From Clostridia bacterium (lineage in GTDB: Bacteria > Bacillota > Clostridia > Oscillospirales > CAG-272), in the NCBI GenBank assembly GCA_017450945.1, contig JAFSSP010000025.1, positions 1 through 54,172 of the forward strand: a stretch of 54,172 nucleotides of DNA, given 5' to 3'. The stretch's first letter is position 1; every line of letters starts with the position of its first letter. The notes below the pieces were generated by a model. It searched no databases and had not been told where the DNA came from. It worked only from the letters and a program-made list of their open reading frames with translations. The translations under genes and the position numbers were made by a program. This document shows, piece after piece, positions 48,560 to 54,172 of the stretch.

Positions 48560-48592
48560 AAAAAAGCACCTGCCGCTGGCAAGTGCTTTTTT
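48560..48592 (-). terminator. terminator of the surface-protein operon
   Basis: A stem of A6GCAC-type arm with a T6-ended partner (48560-48574 with 48578-48592) and GCT loop has G-U pairs only in the minus-strand RNA, so it serves the minus-strand operon ending at 48646. Confidence 0.82.
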
Positions 48593-48599
48593 CTTTTTG

Positions 48600-48655
48600 G
48601 TCTGGCTGCCGGAGGACCCGTGCAGCTTACACCATTATGGTTCGCTTATCTGCGC
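48600..48655 (-). other. structured RNA segment at the 3' end of the surface-protein gene
   Basis: On the minus strand ACCAT-A-ATGGT (48630-48640) and GCTGC-A-CGG-(5 nt)-CCG-GCAGC (48603-48625) hairpins lie side by side, beginning in the last codons of the surface protein. The order (GAACC hairpin, AAGCT, GGGTCC, GGCAGCC) faintly recalls the c-di-GMP-I aptamer, but its closing stem is missing. It lies between the surface operon and the TfoX-like gene. Identity is unknown. Confidence 0.4.
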
Positions 48656-50148
48656 TTTTTGATTACAATGGCAATCACAATAACGGTGCCACCAAGAACG
48701 ACAGCAGCAATTGCAACAACAATCCAAACAATTCGGTTGTCGCTCGATTCTTCCGCGCCATCCTGAGGATCCTTATCAATTGCACTCGGTGCTTTCTTGG
48801 GGATCACTTCTTCTTTTTTATCTCCGCAGACCGAGCAAGTAGCGGTTTTAACGCCATCTTCGGTCTCAGTGGCCTCTTTGGTCACCACTGCTTCGCCATA
48901 CTTATGGCCAAGTGCCGGAAGCACGCTTGTTTGCACATTTCCGCAAATTGAGCAAACCTGGGATTCCTCGCCTGCAGCAGTGCAGGTAGGAGCCTTGGTC
49001 TGTTCCCAGTTGCCATAGGCATGATTGCCTTTTGCAATCTCCTCGGTCTCAGCATTGCCGCAGATCGAGCAGATTCTGGTTTTGATGCCCACTTCACTGC
49101 AGGTGGGAGCTTTGGTCTGCTTCCAAGCGCCATAGACATGGCTGGTCTTCGGAATGCTTCTGTATTCAGTGGTTCCGCAAATCGAGCAGGTGCTGGATTC
49201 AGAGCCCTCTGCGTTGCAAGTAGCAGCCTGAACCTGTTTCCATGCACCAAAGTTGTGGTGCAGTCTTGCTATCTCTTCGGTATCAACATATCCGCAAACC
49301 GAGCATTTTCTGGTCTGGCTACCTTCGTCGCTGCAAGTAGGCGCCTTTGTTTGCTGCCATGCACCAAAGGTATGGCTCAGCTTTCCCACCTCGGCGGTTT
49401 CCACCTTGCCGCAAGTGGAGCAGGTTCTGGTTTTGCTACCCTTTTCACTGCAGGTGGGCGCTTTTGTTTGCTGCCATTCACCAAAGGTGTGATCTTCGGT
49501 TTTTGCAATGGTCTCGGTTTTGGTGCCGCCGCAAACGCTACAGGTGTAGGTGCGAGTGCCTGCCTCTTTACAGGTGGCCGCTTTTGTCACCGTACCGTTG
49601 TCCCAAGTGTGGGCTTCGGTTTCCTTCAGACCGCAAATCAAGCAAGCCTTTTCGTGAACATCGTTATTGGAGAAAGTCCATGCTCCAAAGTTGTGATTCA
49701 CACAAACCACGGTAACAACAGTGGGAATCGGCGTGCAGACAACATCGCCAGCTTCATTTTGAGCCGGTGCTTTGGTCTGGATGGTCGTATCACCCAAAAT
49801 AGCATTCGCTTTGACCTTCAAAACGTATTTGAAAATCTCGCCGTTAACATCTTGTTCCTGCAGGAACGCGATGACTGCCTGGGTTCCATTGAAATCGGAC
49901 ATCAGCCCTGTAATCAGCCACTCGCCGGAGACCAGTTCAAAGACGTTGGCATCATAAATAGGCTCCAAGCCCATGGAGAGGAGAGGAGCGCAATCGCTCA
50001 TGCGAACCGTGACGGTAATTTCGTCACCAAACGTCAGCGTCTGCACTTCCACTTTGGAAGTGACTTTTGCATCTTCTGCCGCAAAAGCCGTGATTGACAT
50101 TGCAAAGATCAATGCCAGACATACAATCAAAAATAAACTTTTTTTCAT
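48646..50148 (-). CDS. membrane-anchored surface protein: cohesin-like domain plus paired-cysteine repeats
   Basis: The 500-residue protein starts with a signal peptide ending AFAAED. Residues 27-150 look like a cohesin-type beta domain (TFGDEITVTVRMSDC, LEPIYDANVFELVSG). Eight repeats of about 40 residues follow, mostly H-x-F/Y-G-x-W-x-x-T-K-A-P-T-C, then x(9-11) C-S-x-C-G; the first and last are degenerate. CxxCG pairs plus the preceding Cys and His could bind zinc or form disulfides. One C-terminal helix (VVAIAAVVLGGTVIVIAIV) with KKRR stop-transfer anchors it to the membrane. It is the last of three adjacent related genes, 12 nt after its neighbour. Confidence 0.85.
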   Translation of the reverse strand: MKKSLFLIVCLALIFAMSITAFAAEDAKVTSKVEVQTLTFGDEITVTVRMSDCAPLLSMGLEPIYDANVFELVSGEWLITGLMSDFNGTQAVIAFLQEQDVNGEIFKYVLKVKANAILGDTTIQTKAPAQNEAGDVVCTPIPTVVTVVCVNHNFGAWTFSNNDVHEKACLICGLKETEAHTWDNGTVTKAATCKEAGTRTYTCSVCGGTKTETIAKTEDHTFGEWQQTKAPTCSEKGSKTRTCSTCGKVETAEVGKLSHTFGAWQQTKAPTCSDEGSQTRKCSVCGYVDTEEIARLHHNFGAWKQVQAATCNAEGSESSTCSICGTTEYRSIPKTSHVYGAWKQTKAPTCSEVGIKTRICSICGNAETEEIAKGNHAYGNWEQTKAPTCTAAGEESQVCSICGNVQTSVLPALGHKYGEAVVTKEATETEDGVKTATCSVCGDKKEEVIPKKAPSAIDKDPQDGAEESSDNRIVWIVVAIAAVVLGGTVIVIAIVIKKRR

Positions 50149-50160
50149 GGATCAATCTCC

Positions 50161-52071
50161 TCACTGCGCATTATTTAATGGATATTGCTCACCGCCAAAC
50201 AGCGTGAAATACAGCAAATAAACTGCATCACTGCTGTTTACAACGCCATCTCCGTTGAAATCACAAACCTGGTTGACAGTATAGTTTGCGGGGAACAGAG
50301 TGTAATACAGAAGATTGATTGCATCTTTGCTGGTAACTTTTCCGTCGCCATCCGTGTCGCCAAGGATATAGGTCTCGAAGGACTCACGGCTCAGTTCTTT
50401 ACCGCAAATCGAGCAATACACGACCATATCATAGGTGCCGCAAGCAGTAGGAGTGGGAGCCACTTCATTTTCTTTGACAGCTTCGGCCGGAATATGGACG
50501 AGCGGATCGGTGGTAAAGCTCTCACGGCTCAGTTCTGCGCCGCAGACCGAGCAATACACAACCATGTCATAAGACCCTGCAACTTCGCAAGCGGAATCAA
50601 CGCGGTTCTCCTCGACAGCTTCGCCGGGAGTGTGGCCGAGAGCTGCGATTGCAATGGTTTCGCGCGTCAGTTCATCGCCGCAAACCGTGCAGTAGGTCAC
50701 GGAATCATAAGATCCTGCCTCGGTGCAGGTTGCTTCCACGCGGTTCTCCTCGACAGCTTCGCCGAGAGTGTGGCCGAGAGCTGCGATTGCAATGGTTTCG
50801 CGCGTCAGTTCATCGCCGCAAACCGTGCAGTAGGTCACGGAATCATAAGATCCTGCCTCGGTGCAGGTTGCTTCCACGCGGTTCTCCTCGACAGCTTCGC
50901 CGGGAGTGTGGCCGAGAGCGGGAATTTCCACATAGCTGGTATAATCGCATCTGGAGCAGGTGTTGTAGGCACCCCAACCGATTTCGGTACAGGTTGGCTC
51001 TTGTGCTTCGTGGGAAACATAGTCGTGGCCAAGAGCGGGAATCACGACAAGGTCACGAGTGAGCACTTGATTGCAGCGCTGGCAATAGCCGGTGAATTCA
51101 TAAGAGCCGTCGGCCTCGCAAGTGGGCTCAATGCGGTTCTCTTCCACCCCATCCTGAGAAAGATGTCCAAGCGGGGGGATTGCCACATAGGTGGTATAAT
51201 CGCATTTGGAGCAGGTATCGTAAGCATCCCAACCGATTTCGGTACAGGTTGGCTCTTGTGCTTCGTGGTGCTCAAGCTCATGTCCAGGAGCAGTAAGCAC
51301 AGTGGTTACGCGCTCCAGCTCTTCTTCGCAAACCGAACAGTAAACGACCGTGTCATAAGAACCGTCTTCGGTGCAGGTTGCTTCCACGCGGTTCTCTTCC
51401 ACTGCATCTGCAGGGGTGTGGCCGGGATAACCAACAACGTTGCCGATCACGTCCTCACCGCAGGTTGCGCAGTGGTAGGTGGTGTAGCCGTTTTCCACGC
51501 ATTTGGGAGCGGTCAGTTTGCCAGCTTCCGCATCAATGTTGTGCGCGAGGAAGGAGGCAGAACCTCCAACGAACGGGACATACTGATTATAGCCCTTCGT
51601 GCAGTAAGAAGGATCGTTGTTTTTGGGAAGCATGGTAGAAAGCTCTACCGCTCCGCAATAATCCTCTTTGCTTGTGAAGGTTGCCGTAAAGATGGTGCCG
51701 GTTGTATCAAGGATCTCATTTGAAGAAGAAAAATATTGAATGATGCCTTTTTCTTCGTCTATAGTAATCCTTCCATTAGCAAAGGACTCGCCTTTGACGC
51801 AATCGCCGGTCAGCTCAAGGGCATCTGCATTATAGACCAAACGAAACTGAAGGAGCTTAATTCCGGTATTTTGGACTGCACTGATCGTCACCGTAACCTC
51901 TTCTCCGCTGTTATAAATAGCGGGAGAAAGGGAGACGGGAGTGGTGGTCTCTGCCACCACTCCCACCTCAAAAGTTTCGGTTTCGGAATCTTCAGCAGTT
52001 ACTGTAAAAGTAAACGCCGAGAGAATCAGAGCAGCAGCCAAAAAAATCGCAGCGATTTTTTTGAGTTGCAT
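50161..52071 (-). CDS. secreted protein: cohesin-like domain, nine paired-cysteine repeats, dockerin
   Basis: The 636-residue protein has a signal peptide (residues 1-26), a cohesin-like domain (about 35-180: SGEEVTVTISAVQNTG, LLQFRLVYNADALEL, IFTATFTS), and nine repeats (about 190-570) with xTCTExGSYDxxxYCxxCG and a LGHTPGEAVEEN linker. A C-terminal dockerin follows, with two calcium-loop-like halves (DTDGDGKVTSKDA and DFNGDGVVNSSDA). No catalytic domain is seen. A cohesin-like and a dockerin module in one chain would allow chain assembly with its neighbours. Two repeats are nearly identical in DNA. GGAGG precedes the ATG. Confidence 0.87.
   Translation of the reverse strand: MQLKKIAAIFLAAALILSAFTFTVTAEDSETETFEVGVVAETTTPVSLSPAIYNSGEEVTVTISAVQNTGIKLLQFRLVYNADALELTGDCVKGESFANGRITIDEEKGIIQYFSSSNEILDTTGTIFTATFTSKEDYCGAVELSTMLPKNNDPSYCTKGYNQYVPFVGGSASFLAHNIDAEAGKLTAPKCVENGYTTYHCATCGEDVIGNVVGYPGHTPADAVEENRVEATCTEDGSYDTVVYCSVCEEELERVTTVLTAPGHELEHHEAQEPTCTEIGWDAYDTCSKCDYTTYVAIPPLGHLSQDGVEENRIEPTCEADGSYEFTGYCQRCNQVLTRDLVVIPALGHDYVSHEAQEPTCTEIGWGAYNTCSRCDYTSYVEIPALGHTPGEAVEENRVEATCTEAGSYDSVTYCTVCGDELTRETIAIAALGHTLGEAVEENRVEATCTEAGSYDSVTYCTVCGDELTRETIAIAALGHTPGEAVEENRVDSACEVAGSYDMVVYCSVCGAELSRESFTTDPLVHIPAEAVKENEVAPTPTACGTYDMVVYCSICGKELSRESFETYILGDTDGDGKVTSKDAINLLYYTLFPANYTVNQVCDFNGDGVVNSSDAVYLLYFTLFGGEQYPLNNAQ
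50641..50916. repeat. 138-bp tandem duplication inside the dockerin gene
   Basis: Units 50641-50778 and 50779-50916 differ at one position by eye (A in GCCGAGAGTG versus G in the second copy). Each encodes one 46-residue paired-cysteine repeat, so the duplication is recent and keeps the frame. Confidence 0.92.
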
Positions 52072-52090
52072 TTCTTATACCTCCGAAAAA

Positions 52091-54172
52091 TTAGTTCAGG
52101 TCCAAATAATAGTCATTACCGGCTACTGCATCGGCAAGGAGGAAGAAGTCGTCGCCATTGATGGTGCCGTTCTTATCCATATCGTAGCAGGTAAAGTAAG
52201 CATCGTCATCGGTGTTGGCAGCAAACCAAGCCGAGAAGATTGCTGCATCGTCGGTATCGAGAATGCCATCTTCATTCGCGTCACCAAGCATGACCACATT
52301 GATGGTAGCACCTTCGCCGAAATCGCAGGTCAGCTCATTGGCAAAGTTGATATGAGAAGCCTTTTCGTTGTAGCCTTCCTCAAAAGCGATGCTGACATCC
52401 TCGAGGTAGCAATCGTTGGCAACTCTGAAGGTCAAGGTTGCAAACTCGTAGGTGCCTTTTTCAAACACCTTTGCATCATTGCCAAGGCTCATGGATTGAA
52501 ACAGAATAACAAGGCGATCATTGTTTGCTTTTTCGATCTTCGTGCTCTTGTCTACTTCAAAGATGCAACGCTCTACTTTTTCAAGGCAGAGGGCATCGTC
52601 AAAGCTGAGTGCAAAGTTCACACCAAACAGTCTTGCAATGTCGCTTTCAACATTCATGTAAACATGAAGCGTGACGTAACCGGAGTTGACAGCCACATCG
52701 CTTCCGTTGATGCCGGTTGCTTCGTAGGTAAAGGAGATCGCTTCGTTTTTGACAGGAATGATAACCTCTTCACGGCTAATTTCAACAGGGTTGTCCTGGC
52801 AGCAATCTCTCTGACAATAAGTAACAAGCTCATAGGAACCGGGTGCGTCAAAGGTAGCATCAACGACGTTCTCTATAACCGGTTCACCTGCAAGGTGACC
52901 AAGTGCTTCAACTTCGACAGGAGCATCGATCTCATTCTCGTCTGCATCAAAGAGTTTTCCGCAACGGCTGCACTTGGAATGTGCTTCAAAACCAGCCTCC
53001 GTGCAGGTAGCAATACCAGCTTCAACGTCGACAAGGTCGTGGCCGAGCGCGGGAATTTCTACATAGGTGGTGTAGTTGCATCCTTCATTGGAGCAAGCAT
53101 CATAAGCATCCCAACCGATTTCGGTGCAGGTTGCATCTTTTGCATCATAGTGAACCAGATTGTGCTCAGTCTTTTCAACCACAACGTGCTCGGTCTCATC
53201 TTCCAGTTTTTCGCCGCAGCCTTCTCTCTGGCAGTAGTAAACTTTGTCATAAGAGCCGTCTGCTACGCCGCAGATAGGATCAACGTTGTTTTCGATCACA
53301 AAATCGCCTTTCAGGTGGCCGAGTGCATCGACATCTTCGTCTTTAGTAGCTCCACAAACAGTGCAGGTGAAAGTTTTAACACCCTTTTCGGTGCAGGTGG
53401 GTTCGGTGGTAATTTCGCCATCGTCCCAAGTATGTCCGGTTGCAGGGACATTAGTGTGTCTTTCAGTCGCAAAGCATCTCTCGCACTGATGAATGCTGTA
53501 ACCTTCCTCCTCGCACTTGGGATCAACCTTTCCATTGTCAACCCATACATGATGCGCCTCAATTACGAGATTCTCAATCTCGGTCTCTCCGTCTTCTTCA
53601 AAGTCTTTTCCGCAACGGTAGCAGTGATAATGGCCAACAGTGCCGTCCTCGGTGCAGGTTGCGGGAACTTCATCGATCCAGTCAGGATCTTCGTCGTCGT
53701 CATCGGGATCGTCAAAGTTGTGGCCAAGCGGGTCAACCGTCTCAACCACTGCATAGGGAGCTGCATGGCAAGTCTCTTCGTATTTGCATCTCAATTCTGC
53801 GGACGAGCCACCCTCGGTGCAGGTAGCCTCAACGGCCTCAATCGTAATCACCCACACGTGCGAAGTTCCATCGGCAGAGATCTTGGAGTCATCGGGAACA
53901 TAAGTTGCCGTGCAGCCTTCACGCTTGCAGGAATAGGTGGTGTAGCCTTCCGTGCTACAGGTAGGATCGGTCACAACGCCGTTATCATAATCCCAGTCGT
54001 GACCAAGCGCGGCGATTACCATATCTTCAGCAGTTGCAAGTCTTGCGCCCTCGTGCTGTGCAAGATAATCATCCAGCTCTGCTTCGGGGACAGCAATCAA
54101 CCCATACTGGGGTTCCTCGGGATCAGGATCGGGATCAGGATCAGGATCGGGATCAGGATCGGGATCAGGATC
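52091..54172 (-). CDS. partial secreted protein: (Asp-Pro) linker, paired-cysteine repeats, cohesin-like domain, dockerin
   Basis: The reading frame runs off the window, so its N-terminus is missing; the 693 visible residues begin with an Asp-Pro repeat linker. Nine paired-cysteine repeats follow (for example HTWDDGEITTEPTC...FTCTVCG), some with GC in place of the second CxxC spacing. A cohesin-like domain comes next (GYVTLHVYMNVESDIARL, FALSFDDALCLEKV, EFATLTFRV), then a dockerin with DANEDGILDTDDA and DMDKNGTINGDDF. Module order differs from the neighbour, where the cohesin-like domain is N-terminal. No catalytic domain is visible. It lies 19 nt before the next gene and is the first of the three seen here. 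Confidence 0.85.
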   Translation of the reverse strand, partial: DPDPDPDPDPDPDPDPDPEEPQYGLIAVPEAELDDYLAQHEGARLATAEDMVIAALGHDWDYDNGVVTDPTCSTEGYTTYSCKREGCTATYVPDDSKISADGTSHVWVITIEAVEATCTEGGSSAELRCKYEETCHAAPYAVVETVDPLGHNFDDPDDDDEDPDWIDEVPATCTEDGTVGHYHCYRCGKDFEEDGETEIENLVIEAHHVWVDNGKVDPKCEEEGYSIHQCERCFATERHTNVPATGHTWDDGEITTEPTCTEKGVKTFTCTVCGATKDEDVDALGHLKGDFVIENNVDPICGVADGSYDKVYYCQREGCGEKLEDETEHVVVEKTEHNLVHYDAKDATCTEIGWDAYDACSNEGCNYTTYVEIPALGHDLVDVEAGIATCTEAGFEAHSKCSRCGKLFDADENEIDAPVEVEALGHLAGEPVIENVVDATFDAPGSYELVTYCQRDCCQDNPVEISREEVIIPVKNEAISFTYEATGINGSDVAVNSGYVTLHVYMNVESDIARLFGVNFALSFDDALCLEKVERCIFEVDKSTKIEKANNDRLVILFQSMSLGNDAKVFEKGTYEFATLTFRVANDCYLEDVSIAFEEGYNEKASHINFANELTCDFGEGATINVVMLGDANEDGILDTDDAAIFSAWFAANTDDDAYFTCYDMDKNGTINGDDFFLLADAVAGNDYYLDLN
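54118..54172 (-). repeat. GATCC/GATCCT hexamer repeat coding for Asp-Pro
   Basis: Tandem 6-bp units (GATCCT or GATCCC on the minus strand) encode alternating Asp and Pro, at least nine pairs, up to the window edge. It is a flexible acidic linker between domains; unit number may vary by slippage. Confidence 0.9.

Follow-up and report, generated by a model that had tools for sequence, protein, structure and literature searches.

A three-gene operon of cohesin, dockerin and paired-cysteine repeat modules: a candidate enzyme-free surface fibre in a Clostridia bacterium

Results

The window (the whole 54,172-nt stretch of DNA that was analysed) ends in three tandem genes, gC, gB and gA in that order, all on the minus strand according to the ORF list and the sequence, with gaps of 19 nt between gC and gB and 12 nt between gB and gA; an earlier note on this DNA had described their coordinates and order correctly. 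GGAGG/GAGGAG stretches can be read upstream of gB and gA. The source genome (1.47 Mb, 84% complete) is that of a gut bacterium. The features are as follows:

52091..54172, minus strand: gC, the first gene; ORF open at the window end, its 5' part lost where contig C17 stops, with 693 aa visible
52340..52687, minus strand: gC cohesin-like domain (aa 496-611); 21 bits with the genus cohesin profile, the weakest of the three cohesins
52133..52288, minus strand: gC dockerin, of a class common to the first genes (g1) of loci L020 and L045
50161..52071, minus strand: gB, the middle gene; 636 aa with signal peptide, cohesin, nine repeats and dockerin
51658..51915, minus strand: gB cohesin (aa 53-138); Pfam PF00963, 29.6 bits, E 9.1e-7, over the cut-off
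51541..51603, minus strand: start of the gB array; C157 and H177 before the first repeat, proposed start-cap ligands
50374..51540, minus strand: gB repeat array; nine strict CxxC units
50212..50364, minus strand: gB dockerin (aa 570-620); two similar halves, Pfam PF00404, 29.2 bits, over the cut-off
48646..50148, minus strand: gA, the putatively anchored gene; 500 aa with signal peptide, cohesin, eight repeats and a C-terminal membrane helix with a KKRR tail
49768..50052, minus strand: gA cohesin (aa 33-127); Pfam 18.5 bits, E 0.0024, below the cut-off
48793..49704, minus strand: proposed gA cap (C149, H152) and repeat array; eight CxxC units
48661..48732, minus strand: gA membrane helix (about aa 473-496), then KKRR; from the sequence and a hydropathy script

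gC runs from a (DP)n linker at the contig edge through nine paired-Cys repeat units to a cohesin-like domain and a type I dockerin. The layout of cohesin-like domains, dockerins and membrane helix had been read correctly from the sequence, and the nine CxxC repeats then ascribed to two of the genes fit gB; gA has eight, and in gC, a partial gene, only four of the nine units counted by eye are strict CxxC, and eight are found as Cx2-4C. For the front of gC the whole genome was searched for the (DP)n tract, which is present at the contig edge alone. No LPxTG motif was seen by eye in gA, and a Pfam scan of the three proteins gave no match over cut-off to a domain that binds carbohydrate or to a hydrolase.

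Cohesins and dockerins

Each chain carries one cohesin, as judged by Pfam (cut-off 24.1 bits for PF00963) and by a profile trained on relatives in the genus. With this profile gB scores 66 bits, a circular figure, gB being one of the training sequences; gA, which is not among them, scores 30 bits. The sub-cut-off Pfam match of gA's putative cohesin is further supported by its relatives, the gA ortholog at L020 (L020 g3) scoring 39.1 bits in Pfam; the second genes of L020 and L045 are also over cut-off (36.4 and 26.1 bits). The cohesin-like domain of gC has no PF00963 match in the Pfam scan; a second profile gives it 11.4 bits (E 0.022, best domain 9.6), its ortholog L020 g1 reaches 21.1 bits, below the cut-off, and L045 g1 has no Pfam cohesin. 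Against the PDB, a gC-type cohesin profile has one match, the cohesin 4ums (E 0.056), and a six-row profile that includes gA and gB matches 29 sequences at E <= 1, of which 17 are named scaffoldin or cohesin (best so named 4ums, E 3.3e-4), four NagJ and two Endoglucanase (5nrk, E 1e-4), the six unrelated ones standing at E 0.34 or worse. We take the chains named Endoglucanase to be cohesin chains, and those of NagJ are presumably from Clostridium perfringens. The cohesin reading thus holds on the profile check proposed for it, firmly for gB and more weakly for gA and gC.

The best match of the gB dockerin among solved dockerins (phmmer) is 1daq (E 2.2e-4). In all four calcium loops of the gB and gC dockerins, Asp or Asn stands at positions 1, 3 and 5 and Asp at position 12 (alignment A6, by eye), so the calcium ligands whose lack would have spoken against the dockerins are there. 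The gC dockerin scores 17.4 bits in hmmscan and 22.1 bits (E 2.7e-4) in the genome search, both below the PF00404 cut-off of 22.9. Its assignment as a probable dockerin is supported by its relatives, with which it shares 41 and 45% identity (L020 g1 and L045 g1, respectively); it is only 20-25% identical to the dockerins of gB, L020 g2 and a protein on contig C31 (same alignment).

Orthologous loci

L020 is an intact orthologous operon of three genes with a gB-type dockerin and a gA anchored by a transmembrane (TM) helix, as in the window. L045 and L047 have two genes each, and the gB counterpart ends in an SLH domain (65 bits) at L045 and in a TM helix at L047, where the second gene shares no more than 32% identity with gB. 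The genes next to the L045 and L047 pairs are presumably GlyA-like and dGTPase-like, respectively. At both two-gene loci, then, a predicted anchor stands in the place of gB's dockerin and gA is absent. This swap, which rests on four loci (the window, L020, L045 and L047), supports a chain in which gB would sit on an anchored gA, and with it the earlier suggestion that the third gene product fixes the others to the cell. The front of gC in the window was not found, and in the intact first genes of L020 and L045, which bear on the concern that this missing part might hold an ordinary enzyme, Pfam finds no enzyme domain.

Among 35 genomes of the genus, nine have both cohesins and dockerins, one dockerins only, one cohesins only and 24 neither (p 1.4e-6), so that cohesins are present in nine of the ten genomes with dockerins; completeness of 90% or more together with contamination of 5% or less is reached by only 9 of the 35, so that absences may be gaps. 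Among 98 relatives the corresponding counts are 39, 9, 1 and 49. Dockerins of the genus lie within 2 kb of a cohesin in 17 of 21 cases (0.14 expected), and three relatives in the genus (L143, L145 and L148) have proteins with three cohesins by the local profile. The source genome has four dockerin proteins. For the dockerins on its contigs C12 and C31, no Pfam cohesin lies within 2 kb, and the membrane-anchored protein of C31 has no convincing cohesin (3.6 bits). Pfam finds no catalytic domain over cut-off in any of the four (the genome is 84% complete), in line with the first reading of the sequence, in which no enzyme was visible. Across the genus, a catalytic domain over cut-off was found in 1 of 17 scanned dockerin ORFs (of 21), a Peptidase_S8 at L144. 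Of the two marks of a cellulosome, dockerin-bearing carbohydrate-active enzymes were not found in the source genome by Pfam, nor is any of gA, gB and gC a multi-cohesin scaffoldin.

The repeats and their proposed metal site

Each repeat unit has three Cys (Cys1 and the CxxC pair) and one conserved His. A repeat profile finds 103 matches at E <= 0.01 in the source genome, so the repeats in the operon are not a chance pattern. No Pfam model covers the repeat as a whole unit in the scans of the operon, the relatives' proteins and the dockerin proteins. A zf-BED match in gB scores over its cut-off (28.3 against 20.6) and was rejected as an identity, covering 15 residues of one unit; other Pfam zinc-finger matches (CHY, C1, LIM and others) are below cut-off. 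Repeats are present in 70 of the 98 genomes searched (relatives, own included) and, across the phylum, in 5 of 199 (own included) at E <= 1e-6; they are common near the source genome and patchy beyond. The earlier note had treated them as part of the scaffold. They do occur in all three genes, but they are less special to it than stated, being found also in 31 of the 49 relatives that have neither cohesin nor dockerin; such repeats without cohesins also occur on lipoproteins, placed like spacers.

The profile also matches three stretches of PDB entry 9qa6, the IgA protease of Thomasclavelia (E 1.3e-10), an entry named in the published work on that enzyme (PMC12237041). In the part of that article available to us, zinc sites with Cys/His ligands are predicted at subdomain interfaces of the zinc-binding domains (ZBDs), disulfides are neither observed nor predicted, and there is no map density for the zinc domains, that is, beyond the preceding domain, so that the sites are predictions.

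A His at position -4 of CxxC occurs in 19 of 139 units that lack Cys1 and in none of 678 that have it. Both Cys1 and His are missing from the last unit in 48 of 88 arrays and from 6 of 710 internal units. Ahead of the first unit, [CH]x1-4H is found in 78 of 124 arrays compared with 63 of 2556 control windows; the 78 is an upper figure, some matches being chance His pairs inside GHDLVHH. The pattern has exceptions (in 42 of 132 starts the cap is absent or reduced to a His, and Cys1 and His are both retained at 25 of 131 ends), and the rows are related to one another rather than independent. Among internal repeats alone there is no association between the loss of Cys1 and of His (590/8 vs 53/1, p 0.54), so their joint loss is an effect of array ends. 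In gB the last repeat keeps CxxC and lacks a His, and it has no Cys where Cys1 would normally stand, C544 being shifted; Cys and His stand ahead of the first repeat of L020 g2 and L045 g2 as they do in gB. Assigning ligands in this way leaves over four His and one Cys in the gB array and one His (H297) in gA, where 32 ligands are proposed for eight CxxC units; about 26 potential metal sites can be counted by eye across the three proteins.

The ends of the arrays are complementary, most starts supplying [Cys/His]..His and most ends only CxxC, which argues for one metal site stapling neighbouring repeats. The earlier note had left metal binding and disulfide cross-linking side by side; metal binding now appears favoured by the Cys/His exchange, the array ends and the published prediction for homologous domains, and cross-linking is disfavoured by the exchange and by the presence of three Cys and one conserved His per unit. 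A site built from one repeat's own Cys1, CxxC and His was rejected as first choice: it leaves the start caps and CxxC-only ends unexplained, and an up-and-down three-stranded unit should put Cys1 and His opposite CxxC, to judge from the available description in PMC12237041. A site made of the His of one repeat with Cys1 and CxxC of the next would account for the loss of His from the last unit; the loss of Cys1 there and the second ligand of the cap would stay unexplained.

Discussion

We propose, with somewhat better than even confidence, that the operon encodes a three-part, enzyme-free surface fibre whose members are linked by cohesin and dockerin and whose repeats form metal-stapled rods. 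gA would be the base, held in the membrane by its C-terminal helix, and its rod of eight units, perhaps ~30 nm long at ~37 Å per unit, would lift the N-terminal cohesin through the wall. There it would be bound by the gB dockerin, and the gB rod would carry the gB cohesin farther out, to be bound in turn by the gC dockerin, which is of a different class; gC would display its array and an N-terminal tip, and its cohesin could accept another dockerin protein, for example the 2311-aa one on C31. Each junction would hold one zinc site, to which one repeat would contribute Cys1 and the terminal His and the following repeat its CxxC pair; caps at the start and at the end would close each array. We infer these dockerin-cohesin pairings, the shape and length of the rods, and zinc as the metal; the whole may serve as an adhesin or as a display stalk or fibre. 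The earlier reading, a non-catalytic and possibly zinc-laden surface scaffold, is in our view partly supported.

The same parts could make up a reduced, cellulosome-like degradative scaffold, in which hydrolases or peptidases with dockerins, encoded elsewhere, are recruited by the cohesins, and the repeats serve as linkers only. Seven of 25 family members from other genera have 12 to 43 dockerins, the dockerin subtilase at L144 adjoins a multi-cohesin repeat protein, and mucinolysomes of gut Limousia are built from like parts (PMC12997984, in the text available); the four dockerins of the source genome, none on a Pfam-detectable enzyme, the zero to three in other genus members, and the operon's own lack of carbohydrate-binding or hydrolase domains over cut-off nevertheless make this unlikely. 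We find it less probable still that the three proteins are independent adhesins, with cohesin-like domains that bind sugars or host or food proteins and dockerins that bind unrelated partners, and with no mutual assembly: the genus-wide occurrence of cohesins and dockerins together and side by side, and the replacement of gB's dockerin by an anchor where gA is absent, weigh against it, even though the Pfam cohesin match is below cut-off in gA and absent in gC, and among 13 dockerin proteins scanned from relatives, 7 have a part of the kind seen in adhesins (LRR_5, Big_2 or a C-type lectin domain). A layer for metal storage or scavenging, or for thiol/disulfide redox chemistry, merely fixed to the cell by the cohesin and dockerin parts, would suit Cys-rich, surface-exposed repeats with so many potential sites in the operon and matches in the genome. 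We regard it as very unlikely, since three Cys and one His per unit, Cys/His exchange and capped ends fit closed structural sites, the repeats are placed like spacers on lipoproteins, and the homologous IgA protease domains are free of observed or predicted disulfides in the available part of PMC12237041.

The proposed fibre has relatives among known systems. Adaptor scaffoldins, in which one chain combines cohesins and a dockerin, are already known. cSca1 and cSca2 also carry both (PMC12997984, as far as available), and the presence of a cohesin and a dockerin on one chain, which is indeed seen here, is less unusual than the earlier note held. As in the adaptor and anchoring scaffoldins of Ruminococcus flavefaciens and Clostridium thermocellum (PMC2930009 and PMC4081043, available in part), a type I-like cohesin and a dockerin share a chain and a cell-anchored cohesin protein stands at the base, here gA by its sequence. 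Unlike cellulosome scaffoldins, the chains of the operon have a single cohesin each, with Cys repeat rods between their modules and no match over cut-off to a carbohydrate-binding module, and the source genome yielded no dockerin-bearing enzyme. Non-cellulosomal cohesins and dockerins were reportedly treated by Peer et al. in 2009, and NagJ (of Clostridium perfringens) is a case of their use outside cellulose digestion; such use is also described in ANME archaea (PMC9012536, in part). Here, unlike in those systems, repeat rods of one kind are common to all partners of a small operon, and at two orthologous loci the dockerin is replaced by an anchor; the operon is probably a new form of non-cellulosomal cohesin–dockerin scaffold.

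The Limousia mucinolysome, according to the available part of PMC12997984, is likewise from a gut bacterium, with scaffoldins proposed to attach to an anchored scaffoldin through C-terminal dockerins, but it has dockerin-bearing mucin enzymes and scaffoldins with up to five cohesins. ZBD1 and ZBD2 of the Thomasclavelia ramosa IgA protease have homologous repeats with predicted Cys/His zinc sites between three-stranded units and a proposed spacer role (PMC12237041, in part); they comprise two or three units on an enzyme, whereas the operon has arrays of eight or more on enzyme-free scaffolds. Dockerins on non-catalytic proteins, with LRR or unknown domains, also occur in R. flavefaciens, where the authors suggested that some may help to structure the cell surface, although that organism, unlike the source genome, has over 200 dockerins and a true cellulosome (PMC2930009, in part).

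In the rumen literature, the purpose of dockerins in bacteria that lack cellulosomes is named as a question yet to be answered (PMC4081043, in part). The operon is compact, combining a single anchored cohesin with dockerins of two classes and a natural swap of dockerin for anchor, and it makes this question testable with three recombinant proteins. The repeat register (one metal between two neighbours, capped) is a specific and falsifiable model for a repeat type also present in an IgA protease from the human gut, whose metal sites are predicted only (PMC12237041, in part). More tentatively, and with rather more doubt than belief, we suggest that gut Clostridia make a general enzyme-free use of these parts, building a self-assembling, telescoped fibre with cohesin-dockerin joints, zinc-stapled junctions and dedicated caps; if true, this would answer what many non-cellulosomal dockerins do.

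Results

Operon Layout and the Missing Front of gC

The source genome is 1.47 Mb and 84% complete, and the window is its contig C17 in full. The three genes occupy the final 5.5 kb, where they are transcribed inward from the contig edge. Repeat units are paired-cysteine modules (Cys1, then CxxC, then His).

52091-54172, minus strand: gC, first gene, 5' end cut at the contig edge; (DP)n linker, nine repeat units, cohesin-like domain, dockerin
50161-52071, minus strand: gB, second gene, complete; signal peptide, cohesin, nine repeat units, dockerin
48646-50148, minus strand: gA, third gene, complete; signal peptide, cohesin, eight repeat units, membrane helix plus KKRR

These parts, their order and the anchors are read directly from the sequence, as are the anchor swap, the coupling among relatives and the pattern at the array ends described below; the binding pairs, zinc as the metal, the rod and the role of the operon are inferred. 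The three tandem genes and their gaps (19 nt for gC-gB, 12 nt for gB-gA) are as described in the earlier note, as are the dockerins and repeat numbers of gB and gC and the membrane helix that replaces the dockerin in gA; the repeat number of gA had to be corrected to eight. Within gB (50632-50907), two neighboring 138-nt units are near-identical in DNA (99% over 147 nt), the mark of a recent duplication; repeat number can probably change. On the minus strand 3' of gA (48560-48592), a GC-rich hairpin followed by a T-run was seen by eye; it is absent from the terminator scan output.

The front of gC was not found in the window's own assembly. The contig stops within an (Asp-Pro)n coding tract (54119-54172), and a search of the whole assembly found that pattern here only; assembly may therefore have failed at this repeat and left the break. 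An ordinary enzyme in the missing part would contradict the enzyme-free operon proposed earlier, and Pfam finds none in the complete orthologs of gC at two related loci. One of these, L020 (RGIG7304, a water-buffalo cecum MAG), carries orthologs of the three genes in full, as an operon (794, 504 and 344 aa); apart from the repeats, the only Pfam matches in its first gene are a cohesin (21.1 bits, under cut-off) and a dockerin (29.5). At the other, L045 (UBA3220), the first gene is complete and built as gC, and Pfam reports the dockerin alone.

Cohesin and Dockerin Assignments

Cohesin-like domains had been proposed for all three proteins and dockerins for two; Pfam places both gB domains over cut-off and both the gA cohesin and the gC dockerin under it, and its scan of gC found no cohesin. 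A six-domain cohesin-like profile (gA and gB included) matched 29 PDB sequences at E <= 1: 17 named scaffoldin or cohesin, 4 NagJ, 2 Endoglucanase (which we take to be cohesin chains) and 6 unrelated. The gC-type profile had a single PDB match, cohesin 4ums (E 0.056), and profile comparison gave it a 56% probability against the six-domain profile; a profile trained on genus cohesins scored gA at 30 bits and gC at 21 bits. In alignments, the gC dockerin is 41 and 45% identical to those of the L020 and L045 first genes and only 20-25% identical to those of gB, the L020 second gene and a protein on own-genome contig C31, which by eye have a common pattern with two similar halves. The presence of two dockerin classes points to two joints.

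Both the window and L020 have a second gene that terminates in a dockerin and a third that gives a membrane-anchored cohesin. The second gene terminates instead in SLH modules (65 bits) at L045 and in a membrane helix at the distant L047 (32% identity); at both there is no dockerin in that position, the third gene is absent, and the genes next to the second are presumably housekeeping genes. This swap, observed across four loci (window, L020, L045 and L047), is as would be expected if the gB dockerin serves to reach anchored gA.

Coupling Among Relatives

Among 35 genus genomes (9 of them with completeness >= 90% and contamination <= 5%), dockerin (E <= 0.001) was found in 10, cohesin (E <= 0.01) in 10 and both in 9 (p 1.4e-6); among 98 relatives, 39 had both and 49 neither, with dockerin alone in 9 and cohesin alone in 1. 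A cohesin lies <2 kb from 17 of the 21 genus dockerins (0.14 expected). The remaining four are on G011:C53, G018:C69 and own-genome C12 and C31; the C31 protein itself contains a gA-type cohesin (37.5 bits), and the neighbor of the C12 dockerin has a cohesin-like domain (25 bits). Three genomes (G016, G004 and G022; L143, L145 and L148) share a conserved pair, in which a very large Big_2 protein with a terminal dockerin comes first and a 570-599 aa protein with its own dockerin and, by local profile, three cohesins comes second (of these second proteins, Pfam was run on that of L143).

Repeat Arrays

The repeat profile was built from 21 of 26 units, leaving out one gB near-duplicate, the first unit of gA and the degenerate last units of gA, gB and gC. 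The five columns that never vary (Cys1, Gly, the two Cys of CxxC, and His) are therefore invariant among these chosen units only. Its sole PDB match far above the remainder was 9qa6, a Thomasclavelia ramosa IgA protease with predicted zinc-binding domains (PMC12237041).

What is new here is the statistics on the arrays, taken from 91 ORFs with at least two profile matches (93 minus two of L003, the window's duplicate locus) and 817 distinct CxxC units (940 before identical ones were dropped). A His four residues before CxxC occurs in 0/678 units with Cys1 vs. 19/139 without, and by eye 14 of 37 pattern matches have a form in which the second Cys becomes His (CxNDxxH and near). In arrays of at least four units, internal units have Cys1 in 640/710 and His in 696/710; last units retain CxxC and have Cys1 in 22/88, His in 38/88 and neither in 48/88. 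In a wider ORF set, [CH]x1-4H stands at 78/124 array starts vs. 63/2556 control windows. A second classification of 132 starts gave 77 with this pair, 13 with a unit that has Cys1 and His and lacks CxxC, 29 with His only and 13 with nothing; at array ends, both Cys1 and His were missing in 80/131 and kept in 25/131. By these counts, array starts tend to supply what the ends lack.

Discussion

The simplest reading of these sequences is one predicted metal site per junction, formed by Cys1 and His of one unit and CxxC of the next, in what would be a zinc-bearing rod. With its 8 CxxC, gA would then use 32 ligands and have one His spare; gB, with 9, would use 36 and have four His and one Cys spare. 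Against it, Cys1 and His losses in internal units are not associated, about one third of array starts do not fit, and the rows counted are related to one another.

The repeats are not confined to the operon: 70 of 98 genomes have them, 33/39 of those with cohesin and dockerin vs. 31/49 of those with neither (p 0.03). In the own genome they also occur, by eye, on LRR-like proteins and lipoproteins, a placement as for a spacer. Short arrays follow a lipoprotein-like signal at L160 1177-2100 (C23) and L162 1836-3293 (C16), and the domains after them are presumably cyclophilin-type and endonuclease/phosphatase-type, respectively. On a contig labeled Methanomassiliicoccales archaeon RumEn M2 (L049 5116-9659), the same repeats are split between two ORFs, with a membrane helix at the end of the second; either lateral transfer or a mis-binned contig would explain them.

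Enzymes are rare on these dockerin proteins. Pfam was run on 17 of the 21 genus dockerin ORFs, 4 from the own genome and 13 from relatives (the other four being those on G011:C53 and G018:C69 and, in G004 and G022, the ones of 575 and 599 aa). Seven of the 13 carry LRR_5, Big_2 or C-type lectin domains, one has Flg_new repeats only besides its cohesin, four have cohesins, PPC, DUF6273 or merely sub-cut-off extras, and one, in G044, has a subtilase, the sole enzyme-bearing case in the 17. At L144 4048-10396 (G044:C76), the subtilase gene lies immediately upstream of one for a two-cohesin, five-repeat protein with, by eye, a C-terminal membrane helix.

No enzyme-free cohesin-dockerin operon with these repeats was found among the 4 to 25 top-ranked open-licence papers of each literature search, for example the best 25 of 474 (drawn on here: PMC12237041, PMC12402451, PMC12997984, PMC2930009, PMC4081043, PMC9012536). 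As far as its completeness can tell, the window's genome has no cellulosome-like system; such systems probably exist nearby, since 7 of 25 family members of other genera carry 12 to 43 dockerins.
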